Below, one piece after another: positions 1 to 55,684 of a stretch of 64,000 nt of DNA. Each line of letters opens with the position of its first letter. Position 1 is the first letter of the stretch. The position numbers and the translations under genes were made by a program. The DNA lies in contig CAMPDV010000912.1 of NCBI GenBank assembly GCA_946699065.1, positions 1 to 64,000 on the forward strand, read 5' to 3'. The DNA comes from Loxodes magnus. Taxonomy: Eukaryota > Ciliophora > Karyorelictea > Loxodida > Loxodidae. The notes beneath the pieces were generated by a model. That model was not told the DNA's origin. It searched no databases and was given only the letters and a program-made list of their open reading frames with translations.

Positions 1-193
1 GTAGAAAAATAATGAGGTGCTGATACTGCAAATTGTAAAGGGCATATGGTAAGATAATGCTTTGAATTTCTCTAAAAAAAGCGTAAATAGGAAAAATTAT
101 TTACATAATATGTTTGAGATATATTTATCATCGAACGGAAAACTCTAAAGTGTTGTGATAAACTTTATACTATATAATTAAATTAATAATTTT
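1..193. other. AT-rich, no gene recognised
   Basis: No gene is supported. The first bases contain GAGGTGCTGAT followed by a poorly conserved tract, and the same 11-mer recurs near 26717 inside a candidate coding region. This may be the tail of a related element cut by the window edge. The rest is low-complexity A/T. Confidence 0.3.
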
Positions 194-10430: not shown

Positions 10431-11650
10431 AACTCTGCAGGTTTTCAGATGTTACGTTTAATCTTACTTCTTAGTAACTTGAAACTGCTATTGCCATCTA
10501 TTCTTGCTTCACTATTTTTAGGATAGGATCATAAGAAATGTTTCATTTCTAGAGGAGAAAAATTAAGGGTACTTAAATAACTTAAAGCCTTTAGTGTTAA
10601 TATTCTTCATCTAATTTAAAGGAAATTCTTGATAGAATGATCCCATACAAAAGAGCTGGTATCTTAAGGGATAATTTTCATCTAAATCAGTAGCATCATC
10701 ATACTTTAGAGTAAATAAGATATCTCATACTTTTCCTTTTTGAGAACTCACTATAAAATTTTCAGCTTGAGAAGCTCTGTATATATTATTTTTGGCTAGT
10801 ACACTTGATCACTCTTTATACTTCAAAAGTTAATTTATGGTAATTTTCTTATTCTAGTTCTTATGTCTTAATTTATATAAACAATTTAGTGGCAAAGAAG
10901 GTATCAGATTAGCAAAATCTACCAGAACTTTGGTATCAAGAAACTGTCTTTATATCTACACTTGAATTAGAAGCAACTCCATACATTATAAAAAAATTAG
11001 GTAGATTTATTTTTCTATATTCATTATTCGTATCAATATAGCCACTGGAGATACCTTATTATTGGTTATATTTAAGTACAATTTATCAGAGGTTTATTTT
11101 CGGTTGTTGAAATAGATATGTACATCAAGTTCACAAGAATGCTCATACTGGAAATTACTATCCTTATAATGTAATGGAAGATGTAAAGAAATGACACTTT
11201 TATTCTACTTTTTTTTTGATTGCCTCATTATATGAAGTCTATTTTTAGTCTATAACTTAACAATTTCATTCAAATCTTAATTCTTCACTCGGACTATCAA
11301 TCACTATTTTATACAATGTGCAGTTATCTTACTTAAGTCATCTCTATATACTCATCACTAGAGATATAAACCTTCATCGACTTAACTAAATTAGCAAACA
11401 TAAGAAGATTTAAAATCTTCATTTTACCAGAATTTTAAAATAAGAAAATTACAAATGACCTTCATTATGCTATCTAAGTATCTTAATTTGAATCTATAAA
11501 TCTAAAACTATTTGACTCGATGTCTTTTTGATGAGTTAGAGATTCTATTAGTTAGTAATATTTTGCTTTTCTAAAGCTTTCAGGTAGATCATTAAGAGAA
11601 AGGTCATTATTATTAAATCCTTTTAATCTTGCCTCTGAGATATATTTTTG
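10431..11650 (-). other. Possible unrecognised coding remnant
   Basis: Minus-strand translation between about 10900 and 11350 gives protein-like sequence (for example LHYKDSNFQYEHSCELDVH near 11150) with balanced composition and few homopolymers, but I recognise no family. Frame changes are needed to extend it in either direction. It could be a decayed gene or one with tiny introns. Confidence 0.25.
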
Positions 11651-14600
11651 TAAAGTTTTTGAAGTTTGATATCATTTAAAATATGAGATTAGTTAGAGCA
11701 TGTAAAGTTATCTTTACTAAGTATTAAAATATCTATGTGATAAAAGCTTATTTCCAATTTAGCTTTAAACTGACTAAGGTTACTGAAGAAAAAAATCCCT
11801 AAAATGTATTTATCCAATTTAAAATAACAAAAGCAAATACCTTTTGTCATAAAAAAGAGTACAAACTAGGATTTAAATATACAAGCTTTCTATTCAAATT
11901 TAAATTTCATTACTACAACTAATAACAATAGATAGGGCAAAAAACATTCAACATAATTTAGTTAAATAACAATACTCTTAATATAATGAAAATCCCTAAT
12001 AAATAGGAATTAATTAACTAACTAAGCATTTCATTTACTATTTAAGCGAAAAAGAATATACTTAATTATACCATTTTTAGATCTATTTTAGTTGTAAAAA
12101 TTACTAAAATGAATTTATTAAACTAGATAAACTTTTGTCTTAGCTTCTTGCTATAAATATAATAAAATAAGCAGTTTAGTAATTATTCTATTTCTCCTCT
12201 TTGAAAAGTGAATTAATGGACAATAATTAGAATCTCTTATGTTCCTCATTTTATCAATACAAATTATTCTTGCTATACTGGCTCTATTTAAGTTAGAAAT
12301 GCCTACTCTAATTTTAAATGAATACTAAGAAGATTGAATTTAAAGTCTCTCTTTAGTGCTAAAATGAAAATAATAATCTTAATAACTTTTTTAATAACTA
12401 TCTGATTAAAGAGTTTGAAATATGCTTATAATATTAAATAGAGATATAAATAAAGAAAGTGCATCCATTTATACTTTTAGTTATAATTATATAATCTCAA
12501 ACTTATTTAATAACTAAAGCTATTAATTCACTTATCCCTTCATAGTTAACTATAATCCTTTTATTTATAGGTACTGACTAACTTTCTTTTTTTGTTTTAA
12601 ATTATAAAATGCAGGAATAATATAGCTTCTTATTTATTAAATTGGAAAATAAAGGATTATTTATTTAGGTTACAGTTTAGTATTAATAGATGCAAATTGT
12701 CTGTCTAACTTGTTAGCTTAAGAGTAAGTTAAAGCTTAACTCTTTAATACACTTCTCTATTTTTAGTCTAACTTAAGCAAGTCTAAAAATGCTTTAATGC
12801 TATTTATTTGTAAATAATGAAGCTAGTTAATTATAGGTTAAAAGATTGGAAATACTGAGTAAATAAGGTTCAATGATATTAAAAAGGAATAAAGTTAAAT
12901 TGTTAGCTAGAAGATATAAGTAATTTTAAAGGTGATAAGTAGAAATAATTAGAACTATAGGATTGTAAGAGATATGAATAATTATGAGTTGATTAGAGAA
13001 ATATTAGGGTGTGGGATAAGAATATTAGGTTTTAAGATATCCCACTACTAGTAATACTCATTAAATTAACTTCATAAGCAATTTATGATAAATAGGCTAC
13101 TATTAAGAAATCCCTTATTAGTTATAAAATAGTAAAGAAAGAGAATTAGAGCTCTCATATTATTATCTTAAAACTTGTCTAGGAAAATAAGAAACTATGT
13201 TCATTAATAATCTTAAAGAAAGACCCAATTCATTAAGGAATGGTAAAAGCTATTAGAAGAAGCTTCAAAGTAAAAACCACATAAAAAGTTTATCAATTTA
13301 GATAAAGCATTTGCTGTTATAATTTTTCAACATAACTAATTAAATATTTCTAAAGCTTAGTAAAAAGATAAATAAGGAAAAAGAATGTAAGAAGGGACAT
13401 CATATATAAAATAATTGCTTTATTAATTATGCAATTAAGGTTTAAAACCAATTAATATAATTTTCTAGATTTTAACTAATTTAATATCTCTAATATTTAA
13501 GATACAAGTAAATAAGATTATCTACCTATCTCAAAGGTGAATAAAATAAAAAAATTTTGCTTAAGTAGAGATATAAAAATCCTTATGATTTGATAATTTT
13601 AATTAAATAATTTGCTATTGTGTAAAATATATTAATTAATTGAAGAACTCTACATTATAATTTAATGTGATTAAGTATAAGAGATATCTTTAATCTCTTA
13701 ATTCCAAAGAAATTCCAAGTATAATTTTAAGAGATATTAAAAATAGGTAGAATAAGAGTCGGTATATCTTTTATAGACTGAAGATCTAAAACTTAATGAA
13801 AGCTGATGAATTTATTTAAGATTGTAATGTTTGATTTAATTATCTTAAGCAAAAACAAATAAAAAATTAAGTATTCATATAATAAAATCCAACAGCTATA
13901 TGGTTATTTTCATTGGAAAATCATTTCCTTATAAATCTTCTTTAGAATGGTCTGTAAAATATTTATTTATTTATGCTTCATAGAGATTAAATATTTACAT
14001 ACCAGTCACTCATATAACCCTTTTATTTTAAAAAAATAAATAATTAAAAAACATAAAATGGATTCTACACTTACTTCTGTTTAAATTATCTACTTTTTAT
14101 TAAATATTCCTCTCTAATGTGACTATCTAGTTAGATAACACACGTTGATATCGGTTGTTAGTTTATGCAGTCATTATTATTAGAAAGCATCATACATTCT
14201 AAGTATGATTTTATCTTAAGATATAATATGTGGCATCTATTATTCATAAAAGTCTTTCTTCTAGCTGTAATCATGAGCTAACTTTTTGTATCAGCTTCTA
14301 AATAAATCAAATTCTCTCTTCAATCTATTAACTTTAAATTATCTTATCTTTTCATAAGGTCTCTCATCTATGAAGTATAGGTTTCGACTCTATATATAAT
14401 TCTTCTAAATAGCAAAATAAACTAAAAAGGCTAGCTTAGTAGAAAGGCCTTAATAAAATAAAATAATTAAGGAAGCAGAATAATCCTTTAGAAAGCTACT
14501 AATTATACTAAAAGTATATCCTTCCTACTATAAGTAAAAGTTTTATAAATAGATAACTTTTAATAGTATACAAAAGCTATGATAGTAGCAATATTGATTG

Positions 14601-14868
14601 CATTAAAGTTATAAATGATAGACTAAATAAGTATAGATAGATAGATAGTGTTGATATTACATGGATTCAAATGAATCAAATAATAGCTAAATGTTTACCT
14701 AAGTTAATATATGAATTCTTAATTTAGAAAAGCTGCTGAATAATAGCTTTAGACTAGTTAATAACTATCTAATTATTAATAACTTATTTATTTTCTTAAG
14801 GTTTTGTTTAGAATTAAACATAAATAGATTTAAACTATTTGCTTTAATTCACTTCCATTATAATAAAT
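11651..14868. other. AT-rich region, no confident gene
   Basis: About 3.2 kb of A/T-rich sequence before the RING gene. A stretch at 12960-13400 reads in part like a kinase N-lobe (YELIREILGCG), but the frame breaks soon after and the catalytic motifs are absent, so it is not called. A GATA run at 14633-14650 is a microsatellite. The last 60 bp before 14869 are presumed to hold the promoter; no element is identifiable. Confidence 0.3.
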
Positions 14869-17800
14869 ATGGCTGAATCTAACAGGTGCAGCTCATGCTT
14901 AATCCATTTCGACTCTTAAATACGAATTCCCGTAACCCTTCCTTGTGGACATAAAGTATGCCAAATTTGTATTCTTGAAGAATACTTAAAAGAGGGTTCT
15001 AATCAGTGCCCAAAAAGAAACTGTAGAAAAGTTTCATTCAATGATCCGAAAAATTTAATGAGCTAAAATAGCTAATCAAGTGAAAGTAACCAAGAATATA
15101 AATAACTTTGTCTTGAAGAAACTAAAATTGAGCTATCTTATTAGCAAAAACCAAAACTAATAAAAGTCAAGATTTTAAGTAAAAATAAAGAAGAAATAAA
15201 CTTAAATGTAGAGGAAGGAGAAACAATTTAATAACTGAAATAAAAAGTAGAAAGATTAGAAGGAATTGACACTGATTTTTATGAACTTTATAGAGGATAA
15301 GAGAAATTAGATAGTTAGCATAGAATAAATAAAATGGAGAATAAAGATTAAATTTAGCTAAATTTAAAGTTGAAGGCTTGTAATTAATATAAATTTAAGG
15401 AGGTGAGATAATAAGATAAAATTTAGGAAGTAAATATTAAAAATAGGAAGTAATTAATCAAAATTAGTTTTTGAGATAATGAGAGAATAATATGGTGAAT
15501 AATATAATAATAGAATGTAAATAATAAAATTAGAAAGTATTAAATAATCAAAAATGGGAGAAAGTAAGAAAATTTAAAGAAGGCTAAAATGACTTCGACG
15601 AAAGTTTGAAATAATGTACAGGAAGTAAATTTTAAAAAAGTGCGTAATATATTTATCAAAAGTTAGTAATACTTTAAAAACTAGAAAGTAATAAATAAAA
15701 TCTAAGAATGTAATAAAATAAATAAGATTGTAAAAATATAAGAAAGGGAGTAAAAACTAAATATAGAATGTAAAAAATAAAGAAGATTGTAAAAAAATTA
15801 TGTTAAGCTGGTAATTTAACAAATCCAGAAAGTAAATTATTTAATATATAGCAAGTAAAAAAACAAATAAAGGAGGTAAAAATTAAAATAAGATGGTATT
15901 TCTATTAAAAATAGAATGTAAGATATTTTAAATATTTAAAGGGGGTAAGATATTTTAAATATTTATAGCGGGTAAGATATTATAAATATTTATAGAATGT
16001 AAGATATTTTAAATATTTATAGCGGGTAAGATATTATAAATATTTATAGAATGTAAGATATTTTAAATATTTATAGTCTGTAAGATATTTTAAATATTTA
16101 TAGTGGGTAATATATTTTAAATATTTATAGAAAGTAAGATATTTAAATATTTATAGTCTGTAATATATTTTAAATATTTATAGTGGGTAATATATTTTAA
16201 ATATTTATAGGGAGTAAGATATTTTAAATATTTATAGTGGGTAAGATATTTTAAATATTTATAGAATGTAAGATATTTTAAATATTTATAGTCTGTAAGA
16301 TATTTTAAATATTTATAGAAAGTAAGATATTTTAAATATTTATAGTGGGTAAGATATTTTAAATATTTATAGAAAGTAAGATATTTTAAATATTTATAGA
16401 ATGTAAGATATTTTAAATATTTATAGCGGGTAAGATATTTTAAATATTTATAGTCTGTAAGATATTTTAAATATTTATAGTGGGTAAGATATTATAAATA
16501 TTTATAGAATGTAAGATATTTTAAATATTTATAGTCTGTAAGATATTTTAAATATTTATAGAAAGTAAGATATTTTAAATATTTATAGTGGGTAAGATAT
16601 TTTAAATATTTATAGTCTGTAAGATATTTTAAATATTTATAGAATGTAAGATATTTTAAATATTTATAGCGGGTAAGATATTATAAATATTTATAGTCTG
16701 TAAGATATTTTAAATATTTATAGTCTGTAAGATATTTTAAATATTTATAGAGGGTAAGATATTTTAAATATTTATAGAATGTAAGATATTTTAAATATTT
16801 ATAGAATGTAAGATATTTTAAATATTTATAGTGGGTAATATATTTTAAATATTTATAGTGGGTAATATATTTTAAATATTTATAGGGAGTAAGATATTTT
16901 AAATATTAATAGAGGGTAAGATATTTTAAATATTTATAGAATGTAAGATATTTTAAATATTTATAGTCTGTAAGATATTTTAAATATTTATAGAAAGTAA
17001 GATATTTTAAATATTTATAGAAAGTAAGATATTTTAAATATTTATAGAATGTAAGATATTTTAAATATTTATAGGGAGTAAGATATTTTAAATATTTATA
17101 GTGGGTAAGATATTATAAATATTTATAGAATGTAAGATATTTTAAATATTTATAGTGGGTAAGATATTATAAATATTTATAGAATGTAAGATATTTTAAA
17201 TATTTATAGTGGGTAAGATATTATAAATATTTATAGAATGTAAGATATTTTAAATATTTATAGCGGGTAAGATATTATAAATATTTATAGTCTGTAAGAT
17301 ATTTTAAATATTTATAGTCTGTAAGATATTTTAAATATTTATAGAGGGTAAGATATTTTAAATATTTATAGAATGTAAGATATTTTAAATATTTATAGAA
17401 TGTAAGATATTTTAAATATTTATAGTGGGTAATATATTTTAAATATTTATAGTGGGTAAGATATTTTAAATATTTATAGGGAGTAAGATATTTTAAATAT
17501 TAATAGAGGGTAATATATTTTAAATATTTATAGAATGTAAGATATTTTAAATATTTATAGTCTGTAAGATATTTTAAATATTTATAGAAAGTAAGATATT
17601 TTAAATATTTATAGAAAGTAAGATATTTTAAATATTTATAGAATGTAAGATATTTTAAATATTTATAGGGAGTAAGATATTTTAAATATTTATAGTGGGT
17701 AAGATATTATAAATATTTATAGAATGTAAGATATTTTAAATATTTATAGTGGGTAAGATATTATAAATATTTATAGAATGTAAGATATTTTAAATATTTA

Positions 17801-19001
17801 TAGTGGGTAAGATATTATAAATATTTATAGAATGTAAGATATTTTAAATATTTATAGTCTGTAAGATATTTTAAATATTTATAGAAAGTAAGATATTTTA
17901 AATATTTATAGTGGGTAAGATATTTTAAATATTTATAGTCTGTAAGATATTTTAAATATTTATAGAATGTAAGATATTTTAAATATTTATAGCGGGTAAG
18001 ATATTATAAATATTTATAGAATGTAAGATATTTTAAATATTTATAGTGGGTAAGATATTTTAAATATTTATAGGGAGTAAGATATTTTAAATATTTATAG
18101 TGGGTAAGATATTATAAATATTTATAGAATGTAAGATATTTTAAATATTTATAGTGGGTAAGATATTATAAATATTTATAGAATGTAAGATATTTTAAAT
18201 ATTTATAGTGGGTAAGATATTTTAAATATTTATAGCGGGTAAGATATTTTAAATATTTATAGTGGGTAAGATATTTTAAATATTTATAGAATGTAAGATA
18301 TTTTAAATATTTATAGTGGGTAAGATATTATAAATATTTATAGGTTGTAAAATATTTTAAATATTTAAAGAAAGTAAGATATTTTAAATATTTATAGTGG
18401 GTAATATATTTTAAATATTTATAGGGTGTAAGATATTTTAAATATTTATAGTCTGTAAGATATTTTAAATATTTATAGAATGTAAGATATTTTAAAATTT
18501 ATAGGGAGTAAGATATTTTAAATATTTATAGAAAGTAAGATATTTTAAATATTTATAGAATGTAAGATATTTTTATTCACAGTTTGTATTTAAAAACTAT
18601 TATAGCTAGTATTTTTTTATTATTATAAGAGGGTATTAAATTACCTCAGGCGGTAAGAATCTACTTTAGGTATCTTTTTAATTTTTGATTGTAAGAAATA
18701 ATTATAAGATGGTTTTGCTTTTATTGAAGCTAGTATTTGCTTATATGAGCTTGTATTGTTTCACCTAAGTTAGTAAGAAAATTATATAGAATGTAATATT
18801 ATTTTTATTTATAGGGGGTATTGATTGATTTGAAAAGAAAGTAATTCCTAATATAATGTATTAAAGAATGTTAAAGTAATTGTTAATTTTAGATTATTTA
18901 TACTAGGTGACTTTTTTCTATTTTAGGATGTAAAGAATTTAATGATAAGTAAATTTTTTATTATAGAGTGTAATTTTTGATATAAGCGGAGATGGATATA
19001 A
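14869..19001 (+). CDS. RING finger + ubiquitin-like protein with a micro-exon array
   Basis: Exon 1 (14869-15402, 178 codons) encodes a RING finger at residues 7-51: CSSC, then LPCGHKVCQIC, then CPKRNC, with the Cys and His zinc ligands of a C3HC4-type RING. Residues about 102-175 resemble a ubiquitin-like fold (KVKILSKNKEEI, then ETIQQLKQKVERLEGI, then FYELYRGQEKL). RING proteins are usually E3 ubiquitin ligases; with the UBL this suggests a role in ubiquitin signalling (inference). From 15403 the gene continues as GT...AG introns of 16-24 nt separated by exons of 3 nt, plus single exons of 27, 24 and 21 nt. Phase 0 is kept, giving EEEFLRQWENNMNKKKAKM at the start. About 99 nearly identical units follow, then diverged units to CGG AGA TGG ATA TAA at 18999-19001. 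The last few junctions near 18890-18985 are ambiguous (a 14-nt exon would move the frame and end at a TGA near 19005). The splicing model is inferred from sequence only. Confidence 0.7.
15403..15913 (+). other. Diverged 5' part of the micro-exon array (about 21 exons)
   Basis: Intron 1 is 15403-15426 (GTGAG...TTTAG, 24 nt). Parsing by GT...AG gives exons GAA, GAA, a 27-mer, AAT, AAA, AAA, a 24-mer, GAA, TGC, TTA, AAA, AAT, ATT, GGA, AAT, ATT, CTG, AAA, CAA, GAG, ATG. Introns are 16-24 nt and differ in sequence from one another. All exon lengths are multiples of three, and the concatenated frame gives ordinary charged protein sequence including CLKNIGNILKQEM. Intron sequence differs while exon length and splice dinucleotides are kept, so this does not look like a simple satellite. 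Confidence 0.65.
15914..18564 (+). repeat. Homogenised 27-bp intron/codon array (about 99 units)
   Basis: Each unit is a 24-nt segment beginning GTAAGATATTTT (or ATTATA, or GTAATATATT variants) and ending ATTTATAG, plus three variable bases. The variable triplets are AAT, TGG, TCT, AAA, CGG or AGG, GGA, and once each GGG, GGT and GTT. By hand count the encoded residues are about 28 Asn, 24 Trp, 15 Ser, 11 Lys, 11 Arg, 9 Gly and 1 Val. A block of 22 units (594 bp) is repeated in the same order, starting at 16697 and 17291. The 24-nt part fits the organism's intron size with 5' GTAAG and 3' TAG, so the triplets are read as single-codon exons. The alternative is a coding or non-coding minisatellite. 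One unit near 16134 is 26 bp (23-nt intron) and one near 18490 is also short. Confidence 0.85.
18565..18986 (+). other. Diverged 3' part of the micro-exon array
   Basis: After the homogeneous units the same architecture continues with unlike introns. Exons read TTT, CTA, AGG, GCG, a 21-mer (encoding VSFQFLI), ATG, CTA, CTT, TTA, AAT, GGG, AAA, AAT, then a stretch near 18890-18915 with ambiguous junctions, then GAT, AGT and the last exon from 18987. Introns are 17-26 nt and T-rich, for example GTATTAAATTACCTCAG. The hydrophobic codons here contrast with the polar/Trp array before it. Confidence 0.55.
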
Positions 19002-20544
19002 CATTTGACGATTTTAAATATTTATCTTAAATTAAAGTTTTATTATTTATTAATTTTAGACTTAGTTACTTTAGTTATTTCAAAGTTACTAATCATTATA
19101 GCATTAGATTTTAAGATCTTTACTATCTTTCTCATTTTTTTCACTTTATTAACCAAAAATTGATTCCTATTAAGGAGATGTGTGAATTAATAATTTAGGT
19201 AATATTTTGATAATAGCTATAGTTTTTTTTTCCTGATGTATTAGATTTCTTATAATAGATCTTTGATTTTTAAAATATGTTTAGAATTTTTTATTTTTAT
19301 TCTTTCCATTAATCTTTAAAATATCTTCTGTAATTTTTGAATAGGAAGATAATATGTAATGATCTGATCTCCTCTCTATAAAATGTGTGCTTTATGAATT
19401 ATGAATTACTTATCTTAAATAATAGTAAATAAACATGTTGTTAGTTAGTTTGATTCAGCCATTCTTGTAAATGTAATAAAGTGTTAAAGTGTTACTGCGA
19501 CATGGTTGCTCCTATTTTTTAAATTTTTAATAGATAATTACTTAATTTATAACCTATAAAATGTAATAATATGATTAAAGCAGATGTAAGAATTTAGCTT
19601 ATTTAACATTATTATTCTTATTATAAATTACTACTTCATTATTATTCCTTTTCATTACTAATATTATATGACACTATTCAGTCTATACTTTATAACCCTG
19701 TTTTATATTCTAATTAATATATTAACTACATCTATTTATTAATATCCTCTATCTATATCTTCTATTTTATTTAATCTACTAATATTATTAGTAAGATTTC
19801 TCTAGTTTAATACTATTAAGATGTAGTGTACTCTTAAAGTACTTTATTTACATATTTATGATTAACTTCTAATTTATGTCTATAATCAGAGTTATTTATT
19901 TCTATTATCATTTCAAATCTTAAGTACACTCAAAATTATTTCTATCTTATTATATAAAAACCTTTAATTATTACTCTGTAGACATAAAATCAAATCAGTT
20001 ACCAATAAATGTCGCCAACAAGAGTAATTTACAAGGACAACTCTAAAGAGGCATTTTGATTTTAAAAGTATAACATAGCATAATATAAAAGTAAATATTA
20101 TAAAAAATATAAATAAGTAACAATCTGTTCTAGCTAAGCCTTTATAAATATAATAACAAAAGATCTATTTAATTAAACTAAAAACATTATAAATTGTTTA
20201 ATATATGCTAAGAACATTTAATTATCACTCACAAAAAATTGTATAGTCTAATCAATCGTAGAGTAAATTTTAGTAAGGTTTAAATTATGAAATGAAAAGT
20301 AAAATAGAATATGAAAAATAGAAATAGTAAAGACTTAATTACAGAAAGTAAACAAATATTTCTATTAGTCTAGTTTCCATTACGAAGCTTTATACATAGA
20401 AAAATATAACAGAAAAGAGGCAAAATATATAAGAAACAAATTAAACTGAGCTTTAAGATAATTAACTCATTTTTCTATTAAACATTTATTAATAGATCCA
20501 TCAGATTTATCTAATAAAGTATGCTAATATTTACAAAAGAAGTT
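19002..20544. other. AT-rich, no gene seen
   Basis: This follows the RING gene. Only low-complexity A/T sequence is visible, with no coding frame that stands out. Confidence 0.4.
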
Positions 20545-21720
20545 AAATGATATATTTGTACTGAGAACAAAATAGTAAAAATAGAAATTAAAATATTTTA
20601 GAAGAGCTAGATTTATGGAATTTACCTATAAAGAATATAAAATTACAAGACGTTTCTCTATGCAAATATTTAAAAATATTAAATTTTCACTGGATAAAAT
20701 TGGAAGACTAAAACTTAGCCTTTCTGGAAAATTAAAAAAGCTTAGAAAGCATTAACATAGATTACTCAAATAATATAACAGGGTCGTTTTTATTAGATTA
20801 TTATCTAAACTTGAATTTAAAAGAATTATGTACCTATAGTAGGAATCTGAACTATAATATTCTTAAGCAATATCTATAATTAAGAGGAATGCAAATTGAA
20901 AATCTAAACAGAAATTGAAATTAATAAAATTATTAATTTATCCATTTATGTCCTAATTTGAATTAAATACAATTACTTAAGCTTTTAAATTTATCTGATT
21001 CCCTCTTAGATAAAATAAATACCAGCAAATTAAAAAAATATCTACTTTGAAGAAATTTTATTATCCTCTTTAGCTTTTTATAGCTTTTTACAGCTTTTTC
21101 TCTTAATAATTTCCAAGTCTTTAATTTGCTAGATTAGTTAATTGTAAGAATTTTAATTAAATAAATTTAGAAAAATTTCTATAAAACTCACCTAAGTTGG
21201 AAGCAATAAATTTAGAAAATTTGGATTAATTATAGAAAGAAGATTACAAGTTAATAGGAATTTATTGCTAAAACTTAAAAAAATAATATTATAATCAAAT
21301 AATTAGGATTTATATGAAGAATGATAAATAATATTCTAAAAAACAGAAAATGCACTCAAATATAACTTAAAATAAAATAAATTAAAAAAGAAAATTTAGT
21401 AATTATTAGTGAAAGAATCCAATTTTTATAAAGCTTTCATTTTTCTGATTGCTTAGTTAATAGTTAAAATTTAATACAAGAAATTACTCAAATATTGTAA
21501 TTAAATAGACTAATTTTTGATAACTGCAATTTATTAATACTGATGTGATTGAGATAATAAAAGTGTAGTAAAGATTAGAATATTTAAGCTTATAAAGAAA
21601 TGAAAAAATTACATAAGAAGTTTTCCCCTTTAAGACGAATGTAATAAAGACTTTCCAATTTATAAGATCTTAAGAAATTAGAGCTATAAGGTTGCAAATA
21701 AATAAATGAATAATAAAGCA
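20545..21720 (+). pseudogene. Leucine-rich-repeat gene, frame-disrupted
   Basis: Translation from about 20545 gives leucine-rich-repeat sequence: EELDLWNLPIKNIKLQDVSL, then CKYLKILNFHWIKLED, then NLKELCTY and CPNLNQIQLLKLLNLSD, with the L-x-x-L-x-L spacing of LRRs. Near 21060-21110, within a run of repeated AGCTTTTT units, the good frame changes: it becomes FPSLQFARLVNC, NLEKFLQNSPKLEAINLENL in another frame. So there is either an intron I cannot place or an indel. LRR proteins bind other proteins; ciliates have many LRR genes of unknown role. The gene converges on the minus-strand zinc-knuckle gene at 21721. Confidence 0.5.
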
Positions 21721-22376: not shown

Positions 22377-23351
22377 TTTTTATTTTTTATAATATTAGAA
22401 GGGAAGGATTTAAAAGTTTAATTCTATATTACTATAATTATATATGTAGGAGATTCTCAAAAAACTAAATTCCGAAATTTACAAGTTCGTCGGTATTTTA
22501 ATTCTGACAAAGCATAAGTAGCACCTTAAATTATTTAAAAGAATTTTGCTTTAAAAGAATTTACTGACTAAAGCAAAAAGCAAAATAGTTGGTAGATAAT
22601 TCATTAATTTTTATATTTAGCATTGTTGTAAAATTTATAGTTTAGATTATAAGTATTACATCTATGTCTCTATATTGCTAAATAATGAAGATCTTTTTCT
22701 TTATTCACTCATTCACTTAATTATTTTAATTGTTTATATCTTGGTAGAATATTCTAAAAAAATAATAGCAAACGCATCTATTCTAGAAGTTCAAATTAAT
22801 TAAAAAAATGAACAAAAACTCAACCATTTTTATAAAATATTAAAAATCTGTAAAATCTTTAATTATAAAATAAATAATTAAATAACAAAGCTACTATTTT
22901 TTAAATTTATTTATTACTTAATCAAACCCTAAAATAAAAAAATATACCTTCTCATTCTTATTTTATATAATTTAAGATAATATTGGTAAAATTAATACTA
23001 CTTTATATCTTTAATTAATTTATTAATATAAAAAATGTATTTAATCTGATTTAAACTAATTTTTAACTTCAGTTTTTAAGCTTTTTTATTAATTAAGCTT
23101 CTTCATTAAATAGTTCTACATTTATTCCATTTTTTCCTTATAGTTTATATAAATTTTAAAATACCTCTTAATTAAATAATATATAAGTAATAATCAAATG
23201 TTGCTCTTTTATTTTTTAAAGTTTTCTCTTTATTTTTGATTATTAGCAATTTTATAGACTTAGATTTATAATTAATTGATTTAATAAAATAGTGAATTAA
23301 ATTAATTACTTCTTTCTGAAAATTAGACTCTTTATTCTATTAATTAATTTC
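22377..23351. other. AT-rich, no gene seen
   Basis: About 1 kb of A/T-rich sequence upstream of the zinc-knuckle gene, presumably containing its promoter. No recognisable element. Confidence 0.4.
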
Positions 23352-23655
23352 AACTAAAAGAGCTTTTGGACCGGAAACTCCTTTCCGATTGCACGACCCG
23401 ACGCTCTCTTTTTAAGAAATAACGGGGATATCTTGTTGTGCTCCAGACACAGCTGCTTGGGAGCTCCATCGCTATGAGCAGCCAGGCTTCAAGCCCCTAC
23501 CAAGAGTGGATAATCTCAAAGACAGCGTCCCTTCAGAAAATGATTCTGACCAGTGACTTTCTCAGCGAAAGGAAAGGAACTTGTTCCTAGCCATAAAACC
23601 AGAAAGTGTAGTCAAGAAAGCCAATATCAGCTTCCACCATCTTTTCAATTATATT
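23352..23655 (+). repeat. Structured ~300-bp repeat, copy 2 (candidate ncRNA)
   Basis: Second copy of the element at 194-490, in the same orientation, with strong conservation through ATCGCTATGAGCAGCCAGG and GGATAT...GTTGTG. Differences from copy 1 include changes in the first helix that keep base pairing, and a short insertion near 23600. Both copies are set in plain A/T DNA, which argues for a discrete, mobile or transcribed unit. Confidence 0.6.
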
Positions 23656-24800
23656 TTTAATCTATTAATATATATGATTGCTACTTATAATATCAATTAT
23701 TATGTCTAAATTATATTTTCAAATAGATAATATCCTGCTTATTTACATTTCATTCATCATTCCTTCTTTATTATTCCTCAAATTTTCCTTCTCCCTTTAT
23801 ACAGCTTTAGATTTATCCAGATAATTCTATCATTATAGCAGATCATCTTACTATAATTGTTATTTAAATAACAAATTTGGTATGACCATTATTAATTAAA
23901 TAAATAGAAACTATAAAGAATGATATAAATTTATTAAATTATCTTATAAGTTCTAGTAATTTGCAAATACTTATTATTTATAAATTATTTATATTATATT
24001 TTTATTTCTAAGAAATCCCCTAATTTTATTTAATTTAGTATCCAAATATAATTTTATTTATTTAAACTTTAATAATTTTGTTTAATATTATTAGTGAATT
24101 TTATATAATAATAAAAATAATCTTCATAATTTATTATTCAATCCAACCCCTTGTTATTTTTTCAGTTTCTTGCTATCTAATTAAAATTTGTTGTATCTTT
24201 CTTTTCTGTTTTTCAAATATGAATTAATCTTTTATGACTAAATGTTTTAAATTTAATAATTATAAAAAGATTATTAAATATTCTACAAATTGATTTGTAA
24301 ATTCTATATTTTATCTTTTAGTTTATGACACTATTTTTTAACTTTATTTTGTAGTAATTATAGATTTTTTATTTGTATTTAACTTAACTAACTTTTTATA
24401 TTCATAATAATTATATTTTTCTTCATATAAATTTCTATTAATACAAGTTTTATTTATCTAATCCAATTCCAATTTACTCTATCGATTTTTACTATGCGTT
24501 GCCAAGTGTTGGATTTTGAACCAACCTATTAAGTTCTACTATTTCATAGCCTATAGTTCAAGCACCCTAAGGTGATTGAACATAAATTATGGATTTTCAA
24601 ACTTTTGCAAACGGATTAAAAGTCTAGTGAGGTCTAATTAAGAGATCACACCTAGTCTACTCTTTCATTTTGAATATCGAATTTATAATAAATAGTTTAT
24701 TAATTATCTAGTATGATACTAACATTTTAATGTATAATCTTTTTATCATTTTTAATAAGCTAAACCTTAAATAAATATTATTAAATTTTATCCTGGAAAA
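23656..24800. other. AT-rich, with one strong hairpin
   Basis: No gene is seen. A patch at 24490-24665 is richer in G and C and contains GTTCAAGCACC CTAA GGTGATTGAAC at 24556-24581, a hairpin with ten paired bases and a single mismatch. It could be a ncRNA, a terminator or the edge of a mobile element. Confidence 0.4.
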
Positions 24801-28631: not shown

Positions 28632-30626
28632 ATGGAATCTAAGAAAAAAGATTTAACAGTAGATGATATTTTAGAATTATTAAACAGAAACGGAGCTTCA
28701 AAAGATATCAGATCACCAATTAGAATATGAGATTATGATTAACTAATTCCAAATGATAAATATCTAAATCAACTTAAAAATATTGGCTAGGGAGCTTTCG
28801 GAGCAGTCTATGTTATATAAATAGATAATCTTGATTATGCACTCAAAATAATGACACAAAGAAAAGGATAAACTTAGCAAGATCTTATTAATAATTTCTA
28901 TAATGAATGTAAATAACTTTTATCAGTCAATCACCATAGAATTTTAAGAATTATAGGAATTGCTATTGATACTAGAGTAGAAAGTGACTATCGCTTTTGT
29001 CACTATACTAATTACTAATAAAAAGGAAATTTGTATAACTTAATTAAAAATTAATAATTATTTCCAGATGTCTAAAATAATAAAAAGAGACTTGAAAAAA
29101 AAATAAAGTTACTCGGTTAAATTGCTGAAGGAATACAAGCTATTCACAATGTAGGCCTCATTCATAGAGATATAAAATCTTTAAATATTTTGATAGATGA
29201 AAATGATGCTCCTAAAATAGCTGATTTAGGTTTAGCAAGTGATAGTAAGATATCTAAAACTTCCTAAGCAAGAGGAACTTCTCGATGAATGGCTCCCGAA
29301 ATTTTTATGGGGAAAATTTATCCTTAAAGCGATATTTGATCGCTTGCGTGTGTTACAACAGAAATATTTAACGAATATGCTCCATTTAATAATATCGAAG
29401 CAAAACAAATTAATGACTAAGTGGTAAACTTATAAAATATTCCAGAACTAGGAAATTAAATAAAATAAAGTAATTAACTAAGATAACTCTTAGAAGCATG
29501 CTTTAACTAAGACCCGATATAAAGACCAAGCATTCAATAGTTTAGAATAACAATTGAATAAATAATATAAAATTTTGAAAATGAATTTTAAGATACTAGC
29601 TCCCCATATTTACCCTCAAATAATATAAAAAGCACTTACATTTATTAATTCAATTCAGAACAAAGCGAAAATATAACTAAAGAACAAAAATTCCAAAACA
29701 ACTTATAATTTTCAAATAATATTTAATACCCTTTCTGTACATTTTTAAAGGATGCAAATACAGTAATTTCTATGACTGGAGTTAACTTTAAAGAAGAGAA
29801 ATTATTAAATGGTTCTATCTTGATGGATGAAGAAACTTCTGTCTATTATAATGAAAACTCAATCTACGTTGCAGGAGGAAAATTTGACGGAAATTGCTCA
29901 TAAAACTTTCAAATTATTGATAGAAATAATTTTCAAGTTATTAAGACTAAATAGATGCTTTATCCTAGAAGTAATCCTGGAATAATTCCTAGAAATGTAG
30001 AAAAAAATGAATTAATTTATATATTTTCAGGAAATAATTCAACTTAATAGGAGAAAGCAAGTGAATATTATAATGCAAAAGAAGATAAATTCGTAAAATT
30101 TTAGGAAATAATACTCAATAATAAAAACTTTGGAAGCATTTTAATAGATTAAAATATTTTCGTTTTAGGGGGATTAGATAAAGAAGAAGAAGAATAAATG
30201 TTAGGTTAGAGATATGATTTAGAAATTGAAGTTTGAGAAATAATTGATGATTATATTCCAAACGGATCTTCATTAAGTTTAGTAAGTGATGAGAATAATA
30301 AGATTTATATGTTTGGTGAATATATTGATGGAGTTTATAACTTCAAATGGGAGTAAGAGGAAGCAAAATATGAAAAGATATGTGAGCAAAGTTATCCCGG
30401 ATAACCTTGCAATTAGAATCCAATAATAGAGGATTAAAAAATATATGTGTTTGACGCCAAAAAAGTTTATTGCTATGATATTCAAAAGGATTGTTGGGAA
30501 ACCATATATGAGAGTAAGATACAATTAACTTATGAATAAATTTAAGAATAACTATAAAATTTGACTAGAAAGATTAGATAATAGAAGATTGAAGAGTAGA
30601 AGTAGTAATAACTTTATAAATTTTAA
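28632..30626 (+). CDS. Kinase-kelch fusion protein, paralog A
   Basis: ATG 28632. The kinase domain spans residues about 30-300: glycine loop IGQGAFGAVY, catalytic Lys in YALKIM, HRDIKSLNIL, DLG in place of DFG, GTSRWMAPE with Trp as TGA, SDIWSLA, and RPS near the end. The WMAPE and HRDIKS forms are typical of the tyrosine-kinase-like (TKL) group of Ser/Thr kinases. A Gln/Ser-rich linker leads to kelch-type repeats from about residue 375 (IYVAGGKFDG, YIFSGNN, FVLGGLD, YMFGE, YVFDAKK), expected to form a beta-propeller for binding partners. The C-terminus is a short Gln/Glu-rich helix. The frame is intact over about 664 codons. The stop is taken as TAA 30624-30626, with no in-frame TGA for a long way beyond. 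The upstream 60 bp are nearly identical to paralog C. Confidence 0.85.
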
Positions 30627-39865: not shown

Positions 39866-41887
39866 ATGTCTAATCTAAATTAGGATAAAGAAATCAAGGT
39901 TGATGATATTTGAGAATTGCTGAAAAAAAACGGAGCATCAAAGGATCCACGATCTCCAATAAGAATTTGAGATTATAATGAATTAATTCCTAACTAAAAA
40001 TTCTTAAATAAACTATAGAAAATAGGCAAAGGAGGATATGGATCAGTTTACTTAATAGATATTGAAGGGATCTAATATGCACTTAAAATAATGACTTAAA
40101 AAAAAGGAGAAACATAATAAATGCTAACAAGGGATTTCTATAATGAATGCAAATAACTTTTGTCAATAAATCACACAAGAATTTTAAGACTTATAGGAGT
40201 ATCTATTGATATTAGCGAGGAAGATAGTTATTGCTTTTGTCATTATACTAACTTCTAATAAAAAGGAAATCTGTATAACTTAATTTAGAGGAAATAATTA
40301 TTTACAGATGCCTAAAATTAAAATTAGCGATTTTATAGGAAGTTAAAGTTACTTAGCTAAATTGCTGAAGGAATACATGCCATTCACAATGTAGGTCTCG
40401 TTCATAGAGATATAAAATCTTTAAACATTTTGTTAGATGACAATGATGCGCCTAAAATTGCAGATTTAGGTTTAACGTCAGATTAACTGACTTCATTTAC
40501 GTCTAGAGCTAAAGGATCAATACAATGAATGGCTCCTGAAGTTTTTTGTTAAAAAAATTATGATAGAAGTGATATTTGGGCCTTAGGATGTGTCGCTGTA
40601 GAAATGTTTAATGAAAGCATTCCTTATCCAGATTTAAAGACAAGTGATATTTAAGATTATGTTGTTAATAAAAAAAAAATTCCTAAATTTTTAGAAGAAA
40701 TACATAGAGATAATCTATTATTATAACTCTTAAATTAATGTTTTAGATATGATCCAAAAGAAAGACCTACTATTTAGTAATTTAGACAGTAGCTAGAAAT
40801 AATAAAGAGTTAACATGAAAAAAATCTTTAAATACCTTAAATCAATTAATAAATAGTAGATAATCATTAAGAAGATTTTTCAAGCCAGGCACCTTCTGGT
40901 AAAAAAAGTGGATGATCAACAAAAAATACAAATGAGCAAAAAATAATTATAGCAAAATAAACTTTACCTTAATTTCCTAAAGTTTCTTTTTTAAAGGATG
41001 CAAATACAGTAATATCTATGATTGGGGTTAACTTTAAAGAAGAGAAATTATTAAATAGTTCTATCGTGATGGATTAAGAAACTTCTGTCTATTATAATGA
41101 AAACTCAATCTACGTTGCAGGAGGAAAATTTGACGGAAATTACTCACAAAACTTTCAAATTATTGATAGAAATAATTTTAAAGTTATTAAGACTAAATAG
41201 ATGCTTTATCCTAGAAGTAATCCTGGAATAATTCCTAGAAATGTAGAAAAAAACGAATTAATTTATATATTTTCAGGAAATAATCTAACTTAATAGGAGA
41301 AAGCAAGTGAATATTATAATGCAAAAGAAGATAAATTCGTAAAATTTTAGGAAATAATATTCAATAATAAAAACTTTGGAAGCATTTTAATAGATTAAAA
41401 TATTTTCGTTTTAGGGGGAATAGACAGTGAAGAAGAAGAATAAGTATCAGGTTAGAGATATGATTTATATTTGGAAATTTGAGACGTAATTATAGAATGT
41501 ATTCCAAGTGGCTCCTCTATAAATTTAGCAAGTGATGAGAATAATAAGATTTATATGTTTGGAGAATATATTGATGGAGTTTATAATTTCAAATGGGAGT
41601 AAGAGGAAGCAAAATATGAAAAGATATGTGAGCAAAGTTATCCCGGGTAACCTTGCAATTAGAATCCAATAATAGAGGATTAAAAAATATATGTATTTGA
41701 CGCCATAAAAGTTTATTGCTATGATATTCAGAAAAAAATTTGGGAAACAATATACGAAATAAAATTTCAGGGTTCAATAGAATAGATTTTATAAAACTTT
41801 AAAAACGAAAATGAAATGTAGGAGAATGAGGAATATAAGTAGTTTTAACAATCTTAACTTTTAAGGAAAAACTTTAAATTAATTTAA
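39866..41887 (+). CDS. Kinase-kelch fusion protein, paralog B
   Basis: ATG 39866. The kinase domain has IGKGGYGSVY, YALKIM, LVHRDIKSLNIL, IADLGL (DLG for DFG), KGSIQWMAPEVF with Trp as TGA, SDIWALGCVAVEMF and ERPTIQQF, so all catalytic elements are present. The TKL-type motifs are as in paralog A. The kelch half from about residue 375 is nearly identical in DNA to that of A (IYVAGGKFDG, YIFSGNN, FVLGGID, YMFGEYIDG), while the kinase half differs from A at many codons. One change in B turns a Glu codon (GAA) to TAA (Gln), and Cys to Tyr occurs in NGNYSQ. The C-terminus is a short Gln/Glu helix. The stop is taken as TAA 41885-41887; earlier TAA/TAG codons are read as Gln by alignment with A and C. 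A kinase signalling role at an unknown location is inferred. Confidence 0.85.
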
Positions 41888-46127: not shown

Positions 46128-46371
46128 TTTAAATTAAAAATTACTCTTTAAACATTAAAATGATCCCACCGAGACTCGAACTCGGATTGTTGGATTAAGA
46201 GTCCAAAGTGGTAGCATTACACCATAGGAATGATTATTATATTATAGGTTGTATAAATACATATAAAATAGTAAAAATGATATAATTTAATTTAGTTTGT
46301 TTTGAATATAATTTTAAATAAAAGTTATAGAAATTAAATTTATTATTATTTAATTAAGCATAAAAATATTT
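46128..46371 (-). repeat. Inverted repeat, left arm (244 bp, contains a tRNA-like sequence)
   Basis: Near-perfect reverse complement of 49000-49243. Similarity stops sharply at both ends (outer edge near ATTTAAATTAAAAATTACTC, inner edge at CATAAAAATATTT). The arm includes the tRNA-like sequence at 46161-46231. The tRNA-Gln locus at 55685 shares flanking sequence with this arm, so the arm derives from a tRNA-Gln locus. Confidence 0.8.
46161..46231 (-). tRNA. Gln-like tRNA with CUU anticodon (probable pseudogene), copy 1
   Basis: The body matches the tRNA-Gln(CUG) at 55685 and 60014, but the anticodon loop reads CTCTTAA instead of CTCTGAA. That makes the anticodon CUU (Lys, AAG) on a Gln-type body. 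The acceptor stem has lost two pairs (ATTCCTA against TGGGATC), and in the D-arm the conserved GG is GC with one stem mismatch. The T-arm CCGAG/CTCGG is intact. Probably a pseudogene. If transcribed, its charging identity would be in doubt. Confidence 0.7.
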
Positions 46372-48999: not shown

Positions 49000-49243
49000 A
49001 AATATTTTTATGCTTAATTAAATAATAATAAATTTAATTTCTATAACTTTTATTTAAAATTATATTCAAAACAAACTAAATTAAATTATATCATTTTTAC
49101 TATTTTATATGTATTTATACAACCTATAATATAATAATCATTCCTATGGTGTAATGCTACCACTTTGGACTCTTAATCCAACAATCCGAGTTCGAGTCTC
49201 GGTGGGATAATTTTAATGTTTAAAGAGTAATTTTTAATTTAAA
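49000..49243 (+). repeat. Inverted repeat, right arm (244 bp, contains a tRNA-like sequence)
   Basis: Reverse complement of 46128-46371 with very few differences. It carries the second tRNA-like sequence at 49140-49210. The distance between outer ends of the two arms is about 3.1 kb. Confidence 0.8.
49140..49210 (+). tRNA. Gln-like tRNA with CUU anticodon (probable pseudogene), copy 2
   Basis: Same sequence as copy 1 at 46161 in opposite orientation, with the same anticodon loop CTCTTAA and the same D-arm change. It differs at the 3' acceptor end (TGGGATA instead of TGGGATC), so the first acceptor pair is also lost here. The shared anticodon change shows it arose before the inverted duplication. 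Confidence 0.7.
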
Positions 49244-51763: not shown

Positions 51764-53791
51764 ATGGAATCTAAGAAAAAAGATTTAACAGTAGATGATA
51801 TTTTAGAATTATTAAACAAAAACGGAGCTTCAAAGGATATCAGATCACCAATTAGAATATGAGATTATGATTAACTAATTCCAAGTAATAAATTTCTAAA
51901 TCAACTTTAAAAAATTGGTTAGGGAGCTTTCGGAGCAGTCTATGTTATATAAATAGATAATCTTGATTATGCACTCAAAATAATGACACAAAATAAAGGA
52001 TAAACTTAGCAAGATCTTATTAATAATTTCTATAATGAATGTAAATAACTTTTATCAGTCAATCACCATAGAATTTTAAGAATTATAGGAATTGCTATTG
52101 ATACTAGAGTAGAAAGTGACTATCGCTTTTGTCACTATACTAATTACTAATAAAAAGGAAATTTGTATAACTTAATTAAAAATTAATAATTATTTCCAGA
52201 TGTCTAAAATAATAAAAAGAGACTTGAAAAAAAAATAAAGTTACTTGGCTAAATTGCTGAAGGAATACAAGCCATTCACAATGTAAACCTCATTCATAGA
52301 GATATAAAATCTTTAAATATTTTGCTAGATGAAAATGATGCTCCTAAGATAGCTGATTTAGGCTTAGCAAGTGATGATGTGATATCTACAACTTCAAAAA
52401 TGAGAGGAACTATATAGTGAATGGCTCCAGAAGTATTTTTGAGAAAAATATATCCTTAAAGTGATATTTGGTCTCTTGCGTGTGTTGCAACGGAAATATT
52501 TAATGAAAAAGCTCCACTCTATAATATACCTAAAAATTAAATTTAGAACTATGTTGTGGAATAAAAAAAAATTCCAGAAATAGGAAATTTAATAAAATAA
52601 AATAAGCAACTAGATTAACTTTTGGAAAAATGTTTTAACTTTGACCCGAAATGGAGACCAAGCATCTAATAGTTTAGGACAACAATTGAATAAATAAAAT
52701 AAAGTAATGAAATTCATTCTTAAGATATAAGTTATATAAATTTAGAATTCGATAATCAAGAGAGTTCTCACATACCCTAACTTAGTTCTGAATAAAGCGA
52801 AAATATAACTAAAGAGTAAAAATAGCAAAAAAATTCATAAGCTATGATTAATTTTGCATTTTCTAATTGTACATTTTTAAAGGATGCAAATACAGTAATT
52901 TCTATGACTGGAGTTAACTTTAAAGAAGAGAAATTATTAAATAGTAATATTTTGATGGATGAAGAAACTTCAGTTTATTACACTGAAAACTTCATTTACA
53001 TTGCAGGGGGAAGATTTGATGGAAATTGCTCATAAAACTTTCAAATTATTAGTAAAAATAACTTATAAGTTATTAAGACTAAATAGATGCTTTATCCTAG
53101 AAGTAATCCTGGAATAATTCTTAGAGATATAGAAAAAAATGAATTAATTTACATTTTTTCAGGAAATAATCCATCTTAATAAGACAAGCCATGTGAATAT
53201 TATAATGTAGAAGAAGATAAATTTGTAGAATTTGATTAAATTATATTCAACGATAAAAATTTTGGAAGCATTTTAATAGATTAAAATATTATAGTATTAG
53301 GAGGAATAGACAATGAAGAATAAGAATAAGTTTTAGGTTAAAGATATGATTTAGACTTGGAAGTTTGAGATATAATTCCTGAATATATTCCAACTGGTTC
53401 TCCTATAAGCTTAGCAAGAGATGAGAATAGAATGATTTATATGTTTGGAGAACAAATAGAAGGAGTCTATAAATTCATATGGACAGAAGAAGAGATAGCA
53501 CAATATGAAAAGGTAAGCGATTAGAAATATCCTGGAGAACCTTGCAATTAGAATCCAATATTAGAGGAATAGAAATTATATATATTTGACGGAAAAAAGG
53601 TTTTTTGCTATGACATTTAAGAAAAGAATTGACAAACCTTATATGAAATTTAAACATATTTTACATATGAATAAATTTAGGAAGAGATAGAGAAAATGAG
53701 AAATTAAATTAAATGGTAGGAGATTGAAGAGTAGAAGGCTCTATAACTTTTATAACTTTTACATAAAATAAAATTTATAATTATTTACTAG
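51764..53791 (+). CDS. Kinase-kelch fusion protein, paralog C
   Basis: ATG 51764. Kinase motifs: IGQGAFGAVYVI, YALKIM, IHRDIKSLNILL, IADLGLAS, RGTIQWMAPEVF (Gln as TAG, Trp as TGA), SDIWSLACVATEIF with Trp as TGG, and FDPKWRPSNQQF. The kinase half is nearly identical to paralog A. The linker contains SSEQSENITKEQK, also in A. The kelch half (IYIAGGRFDG, YIFSGNN, IVLGGID, YMFGEQIEG, YIFDGKK) is more diverged from A and B than those are from each other. The C-terminal Gln/Glu helix ends near TAA 53753-53755 or TAG 53789-53791; which one terminates cannot be decided. The same TKL-kinase plus propeller architecture implies an active kinase with a binding platform. Confidence 0.85.
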
Positions 53792-55684
53792 AACCAAAAT
53801 AAATTTCACTAAATTAAATAAAGAAAATTAATATTTTATTTTAATGTAAAAATTGTTAAAGTTAAAAAAATTTAATCTATAATTGAAATTATCTACATTC
53901 AATTTTATTCTCTTATATTATTTTAATGGAATTTTTTATTTTTAGTGTTTATTATTAATTAATGTATGAAAAAAAATTATATTATATATTTAAATATAAC
54001 TTAAGATAAATTTATAATTAGCAACTATTTTGATCTATCAAGATATACAATAGATTATAATATCTGCTTATCATATAGATAATTTTATTCATTGCTAATT
54101 CATTTTATTAAATAAGTGCGAATTATGACAAACATTTTTAATTAAATTTAAAATTAAAATATTAATTTTTTAATTTAAGAGTAGATAAAATAATTAAACT
54201 ATCTAATTTTAGGTTTTTAAAATTAATTAAAATAATTATATTTTTACCTTTTTTTAATTATTTTTATGTTAATCAAATTTCAAAATTAAAATAAAATTTT
54301 AAATAGCTTCATTATTTTTAATTTAATAATTTTCCATTAAAGAAAATTTAATATTTTCAGAAAGGATTTTATTTATAAGCTAATTTACTAAAAAATATAT
54401 GAAATTATTATAATTCTATATTTTTATAAATAAAGTTTACTTTTTTCCTACTATTTTTTAAGCTTTACAGTTACCAAGAAAGTTACCTATAAAATATAAT
54501 TATTAAAGTATTTTACAGGATCCAATATTTCTGACTATTTCATTAATTAAATTAAATTAAAGAATTTCCTACAAATATGAAATAAAATAGTGAGATATGA
54601 TTATTAATTTAATTATAATTTAAAATTTAAAAATATTATATAATAAGTAATAATAGCTTTTAATTATTTGATTAATAGGGTTTTGTTTAATTTTAGAATT
54701 AATATTTTAAATAATTTATCTTTAAGCATGTTCTAAATTATTTATTCTTAAAATATAGATAGAATTAAATATTTAGAATATCTCAGAAATAAAATAAAAT
54801 TTAAGTTAAATTGTATAGATTAGTTAAATTAAAGATAGCAATCAAAAGAGTTGCTACTCTATTTTTTATAAAGGTAACGATATGTTCACAATTTTTAAAC
54901 TTTTTTCAGAACTTTTTATCTCATCATTTTTCAATTAATTTTGTTTTCTTTTAAACTTTTTATATTTTTAGCAATTCAAGTCTTCTTGACAAAAGCATCA
55001 TGTGTAATATTTTTATATATTAGCAATAAATAATTGAAAGGAACTTATTTAATCTTAATCATTAAGTAAAAGAAGCCTTAATTCATAGTTATTAATTTTC
55101 ACAACAATTATTCCTTTAAATTTAACCAAACCATACATTTTAGAATCTTCTAAAATTTAATAATTAATTAAATAAATATCTCGCTTATGAAGGTTGTTTA
55201 AAGGTTTGTATTTAAATATTTAATTTATATAATATTTAAAAAATTAAAAATTTGAAAAATTAAGATTGATAGATATATAACTAAATTTGTAAAAGAAAAT
55301 TACTAAGATAGATAATCATTAGCATAAATTTAAGATTATATCATTGTATATAATTTAAAAGTTTTAAGAACATTTACTATTTTTTAAAAGAGATATAACT
55401 GATTTTATTTCATTAAGCATAAACCAAATCTATTTATAATAAGTTATTTATTGAAATTATGAATGATTTAAACTAATTTATAGATTGAATAGTGATAGAG
55501 TAATTTAAGAATAATGATGTATATAATATCTCCTTCTTTGATTAACATTTTACTTAAAATTCTTTTAATATTTTTTCTTTAAGACTTAATATATCTCAAC
55601 TGCATTTTAGCGTATATTTAGCTATTTTAAATTAATATTTAAATATTATTATTTAAATTAAAAATTACTCTTAAAATATAAAAA
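53792..55684. other. AT-rich, no gene seen
   Basis: A/T-rich intergenic DNA. The last 40 bp before 55685 match the outer flank of the arm at 46128, as part of the duplicated tRNA-Gln locus. Confidence 0.4.

Follow-up and report, generated by a model that had tools for sequence, protein, structure and literature searches.

Can a gene encode the tail of its protein one codon at a time, each codon being an exon of its own? The question is raised by a locus in a 64,000-nt stretch of Loxodes magnus DNA (contig CAMPDV010000912.1 of assembly GCA_946699065.1, positions 1 to 64,000, forward strand; hereafter the window), where an exon encoding a RING finger and a ubiquitin-like (UBL) domain is followed by a long grid of GT...AG segments spaced 3 nt apart. 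An earlier note on this DNA had read the grid as about 130 tiny introns separated by single-codon exons. This count is borne out by our final, hand-checked gene model (model A), which contains 137 introns; of its 136 internal exons, 132 measure 3 nt. Judged from the DNA sequence, the locus very probably belongs to a class of L. magnus genes that encode a ubiquitin-like domain and, after it, a C-terminal tail with one codon per exon, the segments in between being removed by splicing.

A dynamic-programming parse started at the end of the RING-UBL exon yields 133 GT...AG segments up to position 18866, with 129 exons of exactly 3 nt, and an alternative model (model B) has 131 exons of 3 nt and an unsettled gene end. 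In the diverged flanks of the array the introns are 16-26 nt long, the commonest lengths being 19 and then 17 nt in the 5' flank and 17 nt in the 3' flank; the last two introns of the 3' array (37 and 17 nt) are uncertain. The grid described earlier is real, but its segment range of 16-24 nt has to be widened to 16-26 nt plus the one intron of 37 nt in model A. Likewise, longer exons of 27 and 21 nt (the latter twice) were recovered, whereas a 24-nt exon was not, and one of 14 nt exists. When joined, the first exons still read as ordinary protein (EEEFLRQWENNMNKKAKM), with one Lys fewer than had been printed. The predicted product of model A is 344 residues long and consists of the RING finger, the UBL domain, a 159-residue tail rich in Asn, Trp, Lys, Ser, Arg and Gly, and 7 last residues. 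Among the Pfam matches of the first exon, zf-C3HC4 alone exceeds its curated cut-off; a PDB sequence search with this exon matches ubiquitin and TRIM/TRAF6 RING chains. The parts of the gene are listed in Table 1.

Table 1. Parts of the array gene and their positions in the window (aa, residues of the first exon).
Feature	Position	Strand	Remarks
First exon	14869..15402	+	534 nt, 178 aa; code TAA/TAG = Q, TGA = W
RING finger in first exon	aa about 7-53	+	Pfam zf-C3HC4_2 1e-05; zf-C3HC4 9.4e-05
Ubiquitin-like domain in first exon	aa about 98-168	+	Pfam ubiquitin 2.4e-04
5' diverged array	15403..15917	+	22 introns of 16-24 nt (15403-15914); 15915-15917 is an exon
Longer exons of 5' array	15468-15494 (27 nt), 15583-15603 (21 nt)	+	remaining exons there 3 nt
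First in-frame TGA without splicing	15472..15474	+	in the spliced model a Trp codon within the 27-nt exon
Homogeneous core	15918..18561	+	98 introns (96 of 24 nt, 2 of 23 nt), one variable codon after each
3' diverged array	18562..18986	+	model A: 17 introns, 15 of 17-26 nt up to 18926
Longer exons of 3' array	18670-18690 (21 nt), 18893-18906 (14 nt)	+	rest 3 nt
Probable last exon	18987..19008	+	model A; stop TGA at 19006-19008

The middle of the array is a tandem repeat. Tandem Repeats Finder reports 15911-18573 as a 27-bp array of about 99 copies, and a single sequence, GTAAGATATTTTAAATATTTATAG, accounts for 69 of the 98 core introns. Since the core is a 27-bp satellite, it is no evidence on its own, and the flanks carry the proof. 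There the longest chain of 3-nt exons counts 14 (5' flank) and 9 (3' flank), while 1000 dinucleotide shuffles of each flank never exceeded 4 and 3, respectively. In a parse-free scan of 256 dinucleotide pairs at gaps of 0-12 (3328 combinations), the landmark AG-N3-GT has the highest z score in both flanks, with 21 occurrences in the 5' flank (2.4 expected) and 14 in the 3' flank (1.9 expected). Successive landmarks in the flanks are never closer than 16 nt; spacings of 64, 58 and 56 nt each resolve to an intron, a 27- or 21-nt exon and a second intron, and those of 57 and 37 nt near the 3' end are part of the unsettled gene end. In these satellite-free flanks the grid lies beyond chance expectation.

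Variation within the core is concentrated in the predicted exons. The 98 units in the window show 10 different triplets over the 3 exon sites and 8 intron variants over the 24 intron sites. Among the 1680 units of the 46 loci that contain 8 or more, entropy is higher at the exon sites than inside the introns in every locus, with a mean ratio of 10.8; the units were chosen by an intron with at most 5 mismatches from the consensus, which lowers intron variation and makes this contrast partly one of construction. What is left of it may come from selection for codon diversity or from a process that homogenises the introns. The repertoire of core codons changes from one locus to another; 43 different ones were counted, and TGA (Trp) occurs 138 times. 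A plain satellite is expected to vary evenly over its 27-bp unit, and this is not what the core shows. By eye, a run of at least 21 codons (TCT TCT AGG AAT AAT TGG TGG GGA AGG ...) is present twice in the same order within 15918-18561, which points to a multi-unit duplication.

The exact core 24-mer occurs 26,346 times (13,098 + 13,248) in the searched assembly of 705,730,643 bases and 7843 contigs, its reversed control 0 times. At all eight distinct places fetched among the matches listed (L009-L016) a RING-UBL exon lies upstream of a chain of 3-nt exons. These exons are 65-95% identical in protein, the longest chains range from 11 to 88, and in L011 the RING-UBL match is split over two frames. 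The RING-UBL protein has at least 151 matches in its own genome, where 150 of 2706 candidates were scored. None of 29 candidates from a large protein database proved homologous to the RING-UBL exon, and a search of viral and prokaryote genome collections gave no matches.

For the 5' flank, 44 distinct copies including the window were aligned (49 records minus two doubly held places and identical sequences). They contain 57 distinct indels, of which 55 fall in introns, none in exons, and 2 are mixed; 51 of the intron indels are not multiples of 3, while both mixed ones are. With exons making up 21% of the flank length, the absence of exon indels has a probability of 2e-6, provided that distinct events are independent. 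Insertions that touch an intron base were scored as intron and aligners place these freely, so that the deletions are the cleaner half; these alone number 38 in introns, 0 in exons and 2 mixed. The predicted introns tolerate frameshifting indels, and the exons show none. Departures from the window sequence affect 1.4-2.9% of cells at the donor GT and acceptor AG; inside the introns they affect 3.7% in the 27 near copies and 10.8% in the 16 far ones. In the flank exons 22 synonymous and 59 nonsynonymous distinct one-step codon variants were found, corresponding to 1.03 and 0.66 relative to the intron spectrum; the values for the RING-UBL exon (41 colinear copies) are 0.65 and 0.34.

These alignments bear on two explanations that do without splicing of the array. 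One is an ordinary RING-UBL gene that ends at the unspliced TGA at 15472-15474 and is followed by a noncoding satellite with decayed edges. Without splicing, the frame from 14869 does end there, after 201 aa; the core is a clean satellite with a 27-bp unit, and tandem repeats of low complexity make up 231 of the 706 Mbp of L. magnus (PMC11441545). Decay of a satellite should, however, hit all positions, and GT, AG and the 3-nt spacing persist, the segment lengths drift by non-multiples of 3, and no distinct indel falls in an exon. Together with grids elsewhere in the genome that contain no satellite, described below, this renders the explanation very unlikely. The other, an unspliced protein repeat in which 27 bp give 9 codons with open frames, was rejected: the flank segments of 16-23 nt break the frame repeatedly, as do the 51 intron indels mentioned above.

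The surroundings of the gene are repeated as well. The region of about 10958-21717 around the RING-UBL gene is part of a dispersed repeat of at least 10 kb, and the copies are homologous over 10.9 to 21.7 kb of the window or more. About 1.0 kb of additional sequence is present in L010, L011 and L014 at window position 14014-14022, with a similar stretch in L009, and in L010, L012 and L015 a dispersed repeat of about 320 bp (window 23335-23656) directly follows the array gene. A mobile-element gene was sought by a six-frame Pfam search of 7.0-21.7 kb, in which RING and UBL alone appeared at E values up to 0.01.

The grid recurs in other genes. A generic three-landmark pattern has 30,346 matches in the genome compared to 680 for the reversed control, many of them RING-UBL family cores, and a second form of the pattern has 345 compared to 10. 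Nine multi-match places, none resembling the known cores, were picked by hand from those listed. By eye, C315 and C146 are divergent copies of the RING-UBL family, the stretch of C146 holding the UBL part only; the remaining seven (C10, C16, C22, C61, C77, C89 and C377) lie outside it. In-frame parsing assigns 3 nt to 170 of 177 internal exons in C22, 164 of 169 in C77, 210 of 223 in C89, 80 of 95 in C10, 85 of 116 in C377, 90 of 121 in C16, and 49 of 50 in the stretch of C61. This parsing favours 3-nt exons, which plain counts of AG-N3-GT do not. The latter amount to 179 in C22 (24.3 expected), 101 in C16 (21.1) and 94 in C10 (15.8), ranking top of the 3328 combinations in each of the three, and to 227 in C89, 170 in C77, 110 in C377 and 53 in C61, where none of the other gaps counted exceeds 36. 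The longest chain reaches 45 exons in C22, 34 in C10 and 14 in C16, every intron within each of these chains being different, compared to a maximum of 5 in 200 shuffles each. Of the 178 landmark spacings in C22, 169 measure 16-26 nt, and the range of 2-15 nt is empty.

In C16 and C22, on which the repeat finder was run, tandem repeats are minor, and C10 has one short run of three identical units. The grid of C22 and C16 exists without a satellite, and a satellite-only reading is rejected on account of the flanks and of these arrays outside the family. The 27-bp satellite of the window array is secondary; the architecture is that of a gene class.

A ubiquitin-like sequence lies directly upstream of the array in six of the seven outside arrays, and the seventh, C16, has a kinase domain there (C-lobe, 8.6e-19). 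The Pfam ubiquitin match is above the curated cut-off in C77 (1.9e-7), C10 (2.6e-7) and C61 (8.8e-7, with a weak RING), and fails it in C89 (4.7e-4), C377 (3.4e-3) and C22 (0.031). In these hand-picked places, the shared head suggests that UBL-array genes descend from one ancestor, or that some property of UBL tails makes arrays tolerable. In C22 the introns split codons after the first base, and the rebuilt codons fit the codon usage of the genome better than shuffled ones, 3 of 2000 shuffles reaching their fit in the frame of the UBL exon. Compared with the rest of the genome, C22 DNA has short weak matches only, and a search with the UBL of C77 finds itself only.

Two further features of these arrays were observed. 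The spliced tail predicted for L060 (C22:563600-568900, minus strand) in the UBL-exon frame is strongly cysteine-rich, with runs like CLFCECCECGKCVQCGQFC. Inverted copies lie on the same contig in C16 (264.8-266.8 kb and 344.7-346.8 kb, about 80 kb apart) and in C89 (613.5-618.6 kb and 735.0-740.1 kb, about 120 kb apart); in both pairs the pattern matches agree almost letter for letter, as in a palindromic assembly or a true inverted duplication.

That the segments are tiny introns between single-codon exons, as the earlier note had read them, is supported at the level of the genome by the indels, the conservation of GT and AG, the arrays elsewhere and the published intron lengths. Introns of L. 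magnus, which were identified by mapping RNA-seq reads under an upper length limit of 40 and a lower limit on the number of reads, have a mean of 19.3 and a mode of 17 nt, with negligible numbers below 16 nt (PMC11441545); the segment lengths of the window flanks match these introns and support the tiny-intron reading.

Several observations weigh against it. In the family alignment the 3-nt exons change faster than the intron interiors, with 4.7% differing in the near and 16.9% in the far copies, and the synonymous excess of the flank exons is weak by itself (22 of 81 variants, 19.2% expected, p=0.089). The exact 5' series of 22 introns and 22 exons is kept in 21 of 47 distinct places (23 of 49 records) and broken somewhere in the other 26, in 7 of these at the last step only; many copies of the family may be decaying. 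The 3' end of the array was aligned in 13 of 14 copies tried, window included, and the TGA at 19006-19008 is missing from 5 of the 13, which leaves the gene end unsettled. Outside the family, the commonest spacings of C22 (19-24 nt) lie above the published mode of 17, C16 and C10 have a few landmark spacings below 16 nt, and the parse of C16, the least clean model, requires 20 zero-length exons. The codon-order test is reached by 23 of 2000 shuffles for C10 at one offset, the two parses disagreeing on the frame of C10, and at best by 83 of 2000 for C16; the other three of the six tests give 115, 467 and 477 of 2000. A homologue search with the spliced C22 tail detected none, and in a comparison of the tails of C22, C77 and C89 the strongest scores occur in frames that are not set by the UBL exon.

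The broken series would also fit an array that is transcribed and then skipped, with splicing from the first donor to a distal acceptor, so that single-codon exons are rarely or never included and the grid is a fossil or decoy. As the splice sites of the core are alike, skipping would be easy, and since every array exon but the 14-nt one near the end has a length divisible by 3, skips among these keep the frame. Against this stand the lack of any distinct indel in exons and the codon variants, which lean the same way as those of the RING exon; moreover, 93% of the published introns are no longer than 25 nt (PMC11441545). We consider skipping of the array very unlikely.

It is extremely unlikely that the segments are removed by means other than splicing, either from the DNA or by ribosomes that bypass them. 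Ciliates are known for DNA elimination, and bypassing of many short segments by ribosomes occurs in yeast mitochondria. GT and AG ends are, however, a spliceosomal signature. The searched assembly matches the size of the macronuclear genome, and therefore the array segments are still present in the transcribed DNA; the L. magnus paper describes no canonical eliminated sequences (PMC11441545).

For the tiny-intron reading we infer removal from RNA at every site, the order of splicing, translation of the tail and the mode of growth from the architecture described above. The spliceosome most likely recognises introns of about 16-26 nt as units (intron definition), in which case an exon needs no minimum size. 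The introns would be removed serially, probably 5' to 3' and during transcription. At each step the upstream exon would already be long, as it is the growing mRNA, with the downstream side consisting of the next codon and an unspliced intron. In the window gene about 137 splicing events would yield the 344-residue protein, its tail written codon by codon. Arrays could grow by tandem duplication of the unit of intron and codon, and each 27-bp step would add exactly one amino acid and could not shift the frame. If retained, 96 of the 98 core introns cause neither a frameshift nor a TGA, compared to 5 of the 22 introns in the 5' flank. A retained 24-nt core intron would keep the frame and bring no TGA, and splicing errors in the core would therefore be cheap. 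Taken as a whole, L. magnus likely has a class of mostly UBL-headed genes with C-terminal parts in one codon per exon and roughly 50 to 220 tiny introns per gene, comprising a large dispersed RING-UBL family and unrelated-looking genes. The spliceosome would assemble these protein regions codon by codon, the arrays could lengthen the protein one residue at a time, and in the RING-UBL family hypervariable codons would stand between near-invariant introns.

The components of this architecture have precedents. Micro-exon genes have most of their coding sequence in symmetric exons of at most 36 nt. The predicted tail fits this description with its 3-nt internal exons, while the 534-nt first exon holds about half of the predicted coding sequence. 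Micro-exon genes of Schistosoma likewise have many very short exons (3-81 bp), but their introns reach 5 kbp and their products are secreted (PMC10526429). The genes described here differ in having introns of mostly 16-26 nt and array exons of nearly all one codon, in runs of tens to about 100. The bicycle genes of aphids have many microexons, with exons that are not single codons and introns of ordinary size. They resemble the present genes as a gene family with many small exons and a fast-evolving protein (PMC9168663). Inclusion of exons of only 1-3 nt by a spliceosome is known from microexons of 1 and 3 nt in Arabidopsis (PMC4674806) and Drosophila homothorax (PMC7392893), which are single exons of this kind in each case and form no array.

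Introner-like elements share the near-identical intron sequence in very many copies (PMC4457414). Introners are inserted singly in many unrelated genes, and at the eight fetched places of the core 24-mer, all of them RING-UBL arrays, the identical introns stand head to tail in arrays of one family; the arrays examined outside it have different introns. The tiny introns of L. magnus are alike in length range and in a code with TAA/TAG for Gln and TGA for Trp or stop (PMC11441545), and the window flanks show GT...AG ends and lengths of 16-26 nt, with 17 nt among the commonest. That paper treats intron lengths genome-wide, and its available part does not mention runs of single-codon exons (PMC11441545); a search of the open-licence part of PubMed Central found no description of such runs among the titles and abstracts listed. 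Tiny introns and microexons are already known, and we rate the array as a way of building protein as new.

If the reading is correct, these genes represent an extreme of gene splitting, with introns exceeding exons about 7 to 1 in the arrays and exon size at the one-codon limit. Intron definition alone, without a usable exon, could then carry more than 100 splicing events per transcript, and it would become possible to measure directly how small an exon can be and how faithful serial splicing is. Because aligners need anchors longer than 3 nt, annotation and read mapping could miss whole protein regions in such genomes. The unit of intron and codon would be a plausible route for satellite expansion inside a gene, one residue per step, and a concrete case for debates on the neutral growth of gene complexity.

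The macronuclear assembly of L. magnus (706 Mbp) is read with code table 27 (PMC11441545). This karyorelict code is evident in the window from TGA at conserved kinase positions (GTxxWMAPE, SDIWSLAC) and from in-frame TAA and TAG. Three kinase-Kelch paralogues (28632-30592, 39866-41829 and 51764-53632), collinear without introns in tblastn, use TGA for Trp at invariant positions and TAA/TAG for Gln. Compared to a large protein database, the kinase-Kelch gene matches kinases of many groups. A list of introns for the other window genes, produced by a home-made gene finder, was dropped because introns were over-called. On the minus strand, at about 44.1-45.9 kb, a more distant gene contains two kinase stretches. 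In addition, the window contains six tRNA genes (46161-46231, 49138-49211, 55684-55756, 60013-60085, 62859-62929 and 63894-63977), comprising two Lys(CTT), two Gln(CTG), Arg(TCG) and Tyr(GTA).

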